Assembly (NCBI RefSeq): GCF_038561935.1
Contig: NZ_CP102770.1
Location: 6,882,001-6,946,000, forward strand
Length of the DNA stretch: 64,000 nucleotides
Direction: 5' to 3'
Source: Myxococcus stipitatus
GTDB lineage: Bacteria; Myxococcota; Myxococcia; Myxococcales; Myxococcaceae
Made by a program: the position numbers and the translations under genes. Under the pieces are notes generated by a model. That model was not told the DNA's origin. It searched no databases and worked only from the letters and a program-made list of their open reading frames with translations. Of the stretch, positions 16,587 through 19,195 are shown piece by piece. Numbering within the stretch: position 1 is the first letter of the stretch; each line of letters begins with the position of its first letter.

Positions 16587-17804
16587 ATGCGCCACGCCGC
16601 CTTCCTGCTGTTGCTGTTCTCCGCCTGTCATCCACGCCCCGCCGCGGTGACGGACGCCCCCGCCCCCACCCCCTCGGCGCGGGCCCAGGCGGCCCCCGAG
16701 GACGCGGGCCCCCCCGCCGTGGCCCCCCTCGCCAGCCCCGAGGACGCCGGCACGCCCGTCCGCCCCATCACCCTCCTGGTGGGCGGCGACGTGACGCTCG
16801 GCCACAACCACCAGAAGTGGTTCGACGAGCAGGTGGCCAAGGGCCGCTCCCGGGAGGAGCTGCTCGCCTACGGCTTCAAGGAGGTGCGGGCGCTGGGCGA
16901 CGCCTCCGACCTCTTCGTCGTCAACCTGGAGTGCCCCTTCACCGAGGGCGGCGAGAAGCTGGCGAAGAACTTCAACTTCCGCGCGAGGCCGGAGCTGGTG
17001 GGCGCGCTCCTGGCCGGCGGGGTGGACGCGGTGAGCCTGGCCAACAATCACCTCATGGACTACGGCGCCCAGGGGCTGGTGGACACCCTGGTGACCCTCG
17101 AGGCCGCGCGAATCCCCTACTTCGGGGCGGGCCGGAACCTCGCCGAGGCGCGCAAGCCCGCCGTCATCACCGTGGGCGGCGTGCGCGTGGCCCTCCTGGG
17201 GTACTTCTTCCTGGGTGAGCGGAACATCGAGCCGCCCCAGGTCTACGCCACGGAGACGACCCCCGGGGTCGCCGGCCACTTCTCCGACGTGGACGTCATG
17301 GAGCGGATGCTGCGCGAAGACATCCTCGCCGCCAGGCACCAGGCGGAGGTCGTGTTGCCCTTCTTCCACTGGGGCCGCGAGGGCACCTACGTCCCGGAGC
17401 CCTACCAGGTCCGGCTGGCCCACGCGGCCATCGACGCGGGCGCCGCGGGGGTGCTCGGCAGCCATCCCCACGTGCTCCAGGCCATGGAGCTGCACCGGGG
17501 CGCCCCCGTCGTCTACTCGCTGGGCAACTTCGTCTTTGGAGGGAACTGGAACCCACGCGACAAGCGGGGGGCCCTGTGGAAGGGCCGCTTCGGTCCGGGT
17601 GGCTACCTCTCCAGTGAGGTGTTCCCGCTGCGCACGGACCGCTTTCCGGAGCTCCCCTTCCAGCCTGTGCCCGTCACCGGGGAGGCGGCCGAGGAGGTGT
17701 TTCGACTGCTGGTCAACAGCTCCGCGACGATGGAGCGCATGCTCCCCGAGCTGGAGCCGTGGGCCCGGCCGGCTCCCTCCCCCGCGACTGGAGGGAGGGA
17801 GTAA
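16587..17804 (+). CDS. CapA-family lipoprotein (poly-gamma-glutamate capsule-type)
   Basis: A 405-residue protein with a lipoprotein signal (LLLLFSAC, Cys15) and an Ala/Pro linker. A CapA/PgsA metallophosphatase-like domain follows from ~55: LLVGGDVTLGHN, VVNLECPFTEGG, SLANNHLMDYGAQGL, LPFFHWGREGTY and GSHPHVLQAME. These are the metal-ligand motifs of the family. Relatives act in capsule polymer synthesis or cell-wall phosphoester chemistry; no pgsBC partners are nearby, so the substrate is unknown. Confidence 0.88.
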   Translation: MRHAAFLLLLFSACHPRPAAVTDAPAPTPSARAQAAPEDAGPPAVAPLASPEDAGTPVRPITLLVGGDVTLGHNHQKWFDEQVAKGRSREELLAYGFKEVRALGDASDLFVVNLECPFTEGGEKLAKNFNFRARPELVGALLAGGVDAVSLANNHLMDYGAQGLVDTLVTLEAARIPYFGAGRNLAEARKPAVITVGGVRVALLGYFFLGERNIEPPQVYATETTPGVAGHFSDVDVMERMLREDILAARHQAEVVLPFFHWGREGTYVPEPYQVRLAHAAIDAGAAGVLGSHPHVLQAMELHRGAPVVYSLGNFVFGGNWNPRDKRGALWKGRFGPGGYLSSEVFPLRTDRFPELPFQPVPVTGEAAEEVFRLLVNSSATMERMLPELEPWARPAPSPATGGRE

Positions 17805-17812
17805 GCGGCGCG

Positions 17813-17935
17813 TCAGACCTTGTTGTTGGACTGGCCCCGCTTGGCGCGGGTACGGCGGCGCTTGAGCTGGGCCTTCCGACCCTTCGCGCGGTTGGCGACC
17901 TTCTTCTTGGAACGATTTCCCTTCTGGGCGGGCAT
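17813..17935 (-). CDS. 40-residue very basic protein
   Basis: A short open frame reading MPAQKGNRSKKK, then a run of Lys/Arg-rich codons, ending GQSNNKV and a TGA. About 17 of 40 residues are Lys or Arg and there are no acidic residues. A GGAG ribosome site lies 9 bases upstream. The composition resembles small ribosome-associated proteins, and the neighbour prfA is a translation gene, but I recognise no family. It is divergent from prfA and convergent with the CapA-like gene. Confidence 0.65.
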   Translation of the reverse strand: MPAQKGNRSKKKVANRAKGRKAQLKRRRTRAKRGQSNNKV

Positions 17936-18100
17936 GTGGAAGGACTCCGTGTGGTGATGTGAGACCGACCGCCTGGACACAAGACGTGGGCGGTGAGGGC
18001 GGCCCTTCTTTCATGCTACCGCCCGAGCGGCCAAGGAATTTCTTGACTCCGTCCGCCCTTGCCAGCAGCCGGACAAAGGGGCAATACCCCCGGAACGACG

Positions 18101-19191
<1,091 letters not shown>

Positions 19192-19195
<4 letters not shown>

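Follow-up and report, generated by a model that had tools for sequence, protein, structure and literature searches.

A small basic gene between prfA and a PGA_cap-domain gene

The window, that is, the whole stretch of 64,000 nucleotides analysed here, comes from the 10.17 Mb genome of Myxococcus stipitatus. It contains a frame that is read from an ATG at 17935-17933 to a TGA at 17815-17813 and whose product, MPAQKGNRSKKKVANRAKGRKAQLKRRRTRAKRGQSNNKV, has 9 Lys, 8 Arg and neither Asp nor Glu among its residues (Table 1). A sequence-only reading of the same DNA, which gave no strand for the frame, had described a complete 40-residue frame with a GGAG ribosome site, about 17 Lys/Arg and no acidic residues, divergent from prfA. 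The frame and the site were borne out by the sequence and its translation and the composition by the count, and the opposite strands of the two genes, separated by 165 bp, agree with the divergent arrangement. The GGAG is also present in the genus rows shown of the locus alignment.

Table 1. Positions of the genes and candidate elements around the small gene, numbered from the first letter of the window
Feature	Position	Strand	Basis
Gene for a 40-residue Lys/Arg-rich protein	17813..17935	minus	Translation, family conservation, coding signal, predicted helix 13-37
GGAG Shine-Dalgarno site of the small gene	17945..17948	minus	Sequence; 9 nt ahead of the ATG
prfA (peptide chain release factor 1), divergent neighbour	18101..19195	plus	PCRF and RF-1 domains
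PGA_cap-domain gene, convergent neighbour	16587..17804	plus	PF09587, E 2.8e-70
Imperfect palindrome CAAGGAATTTCTTG, intergenic; candidate operator or promoter element	18032..18045		Conserved block
G/C-rich hairpin directly past the stop codon; candidate terminator for both the small gene and the PGA_cap gene	17773..17801		Sequence, predicted fold

Upstream of the gene, the palindrome site was the genome's sole exact occurrence of CAAGNAATTNCTTG. The palindrome is exact in 20 of the 26 genus loci (L001-L026) and is possibly a dedicated operator or promoter element; the flanking intergenic DNA is likewise well conserved in the genus. On the other side, the hairpin is contained in the 3′-terminal part of the PGA_cap gene and has no T run. 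The predicted fold of 17760-17815 has an energy of -31 kcal/mol and a z of -1.80, and 11 of 200 shuffles were as stable. A consensus scan of 17700-18150 found neither a sigma-70-like promoter nor a classical terminator. Compared by eye, the loop of the hairpin differs between species and its stem is mostly kept.

The frame is a real gene under purifying selection

The conserved flanking DNA might suggest that the frame arose by chance where a non-coding RNA or a regulatory region is conserved. Summed over pairs of related sequences, which are not independent, pN/pS among 14 distinct DNA versions from the genus was 0.31 in the frame of the gene, the lowest of the six frames, compared with 0.65, 1.36, 1.46, 1.85 and 4.36 in the other five. 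With 31 distinct versions, reaching into related genera, it was 0.48 in frame and 0.92-1.50 elsewhere. Variation also followed the codon: among the variable columns of the genus over codons 1-31, 4, 1 and 10 fell on codon positions 1, 2 and 3 (P 0.009), and over 39 codons the numbers were 6, 3 and 11 (P 0.04).

Conservation at the protein level was position-specific, with the pattern N-R-S-K-K ... R-A/S-K ... K-R-R-R. R8, K10 and R16 are invariant in all 57 aligned proteins, and R26 and R28 are found in 55 and 53 of them. Beneath these residues the codons vary. Across a set of 73 distinct core DNAs, all six Arg codons occur at R8 and four at R16, and K10 is AAG in 69 and AAA in 4; a set of 74 cores also contained L040, which was excluded here. 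Since the cores were anchored on R-[STLV]-K-[KRQ], a pattern present in every member, the invariance of R8 and K10 is read from the alignment, and that of R16 from both the alignment and the cores. The conservation therefore goes beyond mere basicity. Protein-level conservation also extends across bacterial families with differing gene contexts, and a search of 17400-18400 up to E 1 found no Rfam family. The frame at 17813-17935 is thus a real protein-coding gene; a chance frame retains hardly any probability, and we take it as refuted by the coding signal.

Within the genomes searched, the protein family is confined to Myxococcales

In a tblastn search of 61 genomes, all but one of the 27 genomes from the genus matched the small gene with E values from 1.3e-17 to 7.7e-14. 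The exception, G011, gave a chance-level match only (E 0.585). A 23-sequence profile at E<=0.01 recovered the family from 134 of the 147 class genomes, at a single place per genome, and from the same number when all 195 genomes of the phylum were searched; a 17-member profile made mostly of distant members again gave 134 of 195 at E<=0.001, likewise with one place in each. All the positive genomes fall within the 145 genomes of the order Myxococcales. At E<=0.001, none of the 50 phylum genomes outside the order had a match (2 from another order of the same class, 48 from other classes). Among high-quality genomes of the order (>=90% complete, <=5% contaminated), 111 of 115 carry the gene, as counted from the tables, and genomes as small as 2.1-2.7 Mb (G135, G136, G137 and G047) have kept it.

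A 57-sequence profile at the looser threshold of E<=0.05 matched 138 of 195 genomes. The four extra matches (G057, G163, G175 and G187; E 0.017-0.048) and a second place in G144 (E 0.005) were taken as chance after inspection of those in G057, G163, G187 and G144. In G144, G057 and G163 the matches fall within frames of 101-279 codons, and in G175 within a 97-codon frame interrupted by a stop. In G187, a would-be homologue outside the order, the match falls in 32 residues flanked by stops, and no start codon precedes it. The small gene defines a conserved protein family that, within the reach of these searches, is confined to a single bacterial order.

An exact-peptide scan of the GTDB collection with K[GS]NRSKK[KS][LVI], which reaches close relatives only, returned 110 stretches, 29 of them encoding relatives. 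These came from Myxococcus, Pyxidicoccus, Citreicoccus, Corallococcus, Hyalangium and Archangium as well as from myxobacterial metagenome bins. Among the relatives is also a record with the title Comamonas sp. KCTC 72670 (L118), which has the gene at 95% identity and is probably mislabelled.

Neighbouring genes differ between bacterial families

We compared gene neighbourhoods by clustering the loci, with Pfam names taken from one or two members per bacterial family. In the window's own family, the release factor gene is divergent from the small gene in 60 of 62 loci (a hand count in which some places were fetched twice); the exceptions are L070, without an RF1 match, and L069, with one 3.7 kb off. 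Elsewhere the neighbours are others. In all 13 loci of f5, a topoisomerase VI A-type gene (one member checked by Pfam) directly precedes the small gene in the same orientation; a metallo-beta-lactamase-fold gene adjoins in 6 of 7 loci of f7, a chloride-channel gene in all three loci of f9 and a prolyl-oligopeptidase gene in both loci of f6. An adenylosuccinate-lyase gene is, with the metallo-beta-lactamase-fold gene, also among the neighbours outside the window's family. In two f5 loci, L082 (640-2817) and L085 (2862-3959), the small gene was seen just 3′ of topoisomerase VI genes (PF09239 and PF21180), which belong to the archaeal-type enzymes.

Because the neighbours in the examined loci of other families are unrelated, the vicinity of prfA gives no functional clue. 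Instead, the varying neighbours indicate that the small gene stands by itself. In the loci examined it is never part of a ribosomal protein cluster, and we counted this, together with the change of neighbours between families, against a ribosomal role.

The topoisomerase VI neighbour in f5, together with the richness in Lys and Arg, would suit a nucleoid protein that binds DNA in the manner of a minimal histone-H1-type tail. This neighbour is limited to f5 among the examined loci. Tails of the H1 type are low-complexity repeats of Lys, Ala and Pro, whereas the small protein has invariant residues at specific positions and no such repeat, and its family members, at 34-51 residues, leave no room for a second domain. 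We consider a nucleoid protein improbable.

Anatomy of the protein

Of 95 loci fetched, 91 were used, representing 66 distinct proteins, with some places fetched twice. L045, L049 and L050, which came from weak tblastn matches, hold no family member and were left out, the genes of their genomes being represented by L090, L069 and L077; L040 was left out for want of a start codon. Start codons were assigned by a script that preferred the nearest ATG, and on this rule 88 of the 91 genes start with ATG. In the 91 loci, Lys and Arg make up 41-59% of the protein, and acidic residues number zero in 77 loci and two at most. Residue 2 is Pro, Ala or Ser in 90 loci, a choice of residue that predicts removal of the first Met, and a Shine-Dalgarno-like tetramer precedes the gene in 86.

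AlphaFold2, run with 57 sequences, predicted a turn at residues 7-9 and a helix at 13-37, with a mean pLDDT of 78 overall and 93 for residues 21-30. Cationic helical peptides can be antimicrobial, and a secreted or antimicrobial peptide, or else a leader peptide controlling a neighbour, was weighed. In a reported case, bS22 of C. acnes inhibits growth in disc assays (PMC10085706). For the 40-residue protein, however, no hydrophobic signal segment was seen by eye, and a near-universal single-copy gene under purifying selection fits poorly with either kind of peptide. Both neighbours of the small gene in the window, the divergent prfA and the convergent PGA_cap gene, lie on the opposite strand, which leaves it without a downstream gene on its own strand to attenuate. 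Such a role is very unlikely.

Comparison with known protein families

The single protein had no significant match in Pfam or NCBIfam. When the 57 members were searched up to E 1, Pfam gave nothing beyond one chance match (E 0.55) and NCBIfam gave no match. Likewise, PDB sequences searched up to E 10 had no match to the single protein or to the 57-sequence profile. A narrower profile had matched the N-termini of eL39 and bL32m (E 1.1 and 4). This is a weak, non-significant likeness of the first 15-16 residues only, and kinship was rejected as the matches were gone up to E 10 with the 57-sequence profile.

The sequence-only reading had proposed an unknown basic protein that is ribosome-associated or binds nucleic acids, and had named conservation by tblastn and synonymous versus non-synonymous change as checks. 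Both checks came out in favour of the frame, which is kept within the genus, with the lowest pN/pS of the six frames there, and is followed by the profile through most of the order. Conservation, purifying selection and the lack of a significant Pfam, NCBIfam or PDB match uphold the first part of the proposal, a real and previously unknown basic protein, whereas the second part stands as a plausible best guess only.

Several very small ribosomal proteins resemble the family in general character. The closest precedent is bS22/mS38 (AURKAIP1/COX24 domain, PF08213), which is tiny, 55-65% basic, helical, lineage-restricted and easily overlooked by annotation. Its short and highly basic helix is like the predicted helix of the myxobacterial protein, although the prediction of an isolated helix says little of function. 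None of the 57 family members matched PF08213 up to E 1. In 41 genomes, this profile gave nothing above the cut-off and one sub-threshold match, within a 147-residue frame of G045; the reach of this search is limited, since 1 of 14 control genomes scored above the cut-off and the Bacteroides control was silent, and a divergent bS22 could escape it. Bacteroidetes are known to have bS22. Membership of bS22 would also imply binding in the 16S h2/h27/h44/h45 pocket. An hhalign comparison with a bS22 profile, of low power because that profile consists of three near-identical actinobacterial sequences, scored 10.5, and 26 of 100 column-shuffled controls scored as high. With no PF08213 match and a profile comparison equal to shuffled controls, we did not assign the protein to bS22. 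By analogy, the family may nevertheless work like bS22.

Other identities were also set aside. The ribosomal protein bTHX (NCBIfam TIGR04560) is very short and basic and occurs in some lineages only, and in these respects it is like the myxobacterial family; TIGR04560 matched none of the 57 members up to E 1 and none of 41 genomes above the cut-off. A substitute for bS21 was rejected because PF01165 was above the cut-off in 10 of 10 genomes searched, including that of the window. By eye, bL36 was recognised in the ribosomal cluster of the window's genome. The bL37 of actinobacteria is a small, helical and lineage-specific ribosomal protein that was hypothetical in the C. acnes annotation; it is set apart from our family by the lack of a PDB match to the 57-sequence profile up to E 10.

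There are precedents for ribosomal proteins that escape annotation. In Borrelia, cryo-EM revealed two that were missing from the genome annotation, bS22 and bL38, and bS22 there is 61% Lys/Arg (PMC10618245). The coordinates stated there correspond to 30 residues. Its authors expect bS22 in further species, with its shortness and a possible non-canonical start hampering annotation, and their mass spectrometry identified every ribosomal protein but bS22 (PMC10618245). The C. acnes study gives a bS22 of 33 residues and a bL37 that had been filed as a hypothetical protein (PMC10085706). Among the best-ranked matches in open-licence PMC, compared by titles and abstract starts, none was on this protein or on myxobacterial ribosome structure; the nearest on topic, a study of myxovalargin, uses E. 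coli ribosomes (PMC9853869). Three pieces of the conserved motif had no match in open-licence PMC.

Codon usage and a putative ribosomal role

Codon usage was scored against 47 gene-like frames of the window as background and the S10-spc-alpha cluster of the same genome as the ribosomal protein set, from which the frames of map, adk, secY and rpoA were left out and in which that of IF-1 was left (names assigned by eye). On a scale with means of 0.039 for ribosomal proteins and -0.038 for background, the synonymous codons of the small gene scored 0.045 per codon. Of 1591 background windows, 54 scored as high, and 159 of 265 ribosomal protein windows scored at or below it. In a composition-matched simulation against the background, P was 0.025 for the window's copy and weaker in most other genus members, and 15 genus versions scored from -0.007 to 0.069. 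Codon usage is thus compatible with that of ribosomal protein genes and lends modest support, from sequence, to high expression.

We consider it somewhat probable that the product is a ribosomal protein specific to Myxococcales and acts like bS22 or bTHX. It shares with that class the traits of a small and basic protein from a near-universal single-copy gene, which 134 of the 145 order genomes carry. The ribosomal reading is plausible on composition, near-universality, a modest likeness in codon usage to ribosomal protein genes and the predicted helix; the expression level, binding to the ribosome, the subunit and pocket, and the removal of Met are inferred. The first Met would be removed to leave a protein of 39 residues, which would bind into a pocket of the rRNA during assembly. 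There, the N-terminal stretch K-G-N-R-S-K-K would make specific contacts and the Lys/Arg-rich helix (about residues 13-37) would pack along one or two rRNA helices. The protein would in this way neutralise charge and stabilise the fold, as bS22, bTHX and bL37 do elsewhere in bacteria.

Composition, helix and distribution also fit with a small RNA-binding, ribosome-assembly or hibernation factor that is transient on rRNA or mRNA, such as an RNA chaperone or SRA-like protein, instead of a stoichiometric ribosomal protein. The free-standing gene points the same way, as does the conserved palindrome upstream in the genus, unique in the genome, which suggests regulation. In contrast, codon usage is modestly in line with ribosomal protein genes, and retention in the genomes of 2.1-2.7 Mb points to a core and not a conditional role. 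We regard a transient factor as rather unlikely, though worth serious consideration.

If the ribosomal reading is correct, social, predatory and antibiotic-producing bacteria that serve as a model group have a ribosomal component that has gone uncounted. Whatever its ligand, the gene is near-universal and strongly conserved and has no Pfam or NCBIfam model to recognise it.

Origin of the family and genomes without the gene

A ribosomal protein of this kind may have arisen at the base of Myxococcales and become a near-universal part of the ribosome there, in a pocket that elsewhere is empty or filled by the unrelated helices of bS22, bTHX or bL37, so that a new gene reached the same solution independently. 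We find this history quite possible, if short of probable. It would add another lineage that has gained a ribosomal protein.

Eleven of the 145 genomes of the order had no match. Four of these belong to the window's family (G011, G092, G110 and G138), and there the search for RF1 gave matches of 33-42% only, which are RF2-like. Since a full RF1 could not be found there, a gap in each assembly at this locus is the probable cause. Four further misses (G062, G072, G076 and G057) are 61-86% complete. The remaining genomes, G045, G050 and G054, with sizes of about 3 Mb, are all three members examined of genus g20 in family f3. A narrow search of L140-L143, from two g20 and two f10 genomes, found no small basic ATG frame near RF1. 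With no match in g20 or in the 50 genomes outside the order, ribosomes can do without the protein. If the protein is ribosomal, its absence from one genus and from sister groups permits a direct test of its role. In g20, the gene seems truly lost or too diverged to be recognised: G050 and G054 have a full RF1 match despite the lack of the small gene, and, unlike g20, its f3 relative G038 carries the gene.
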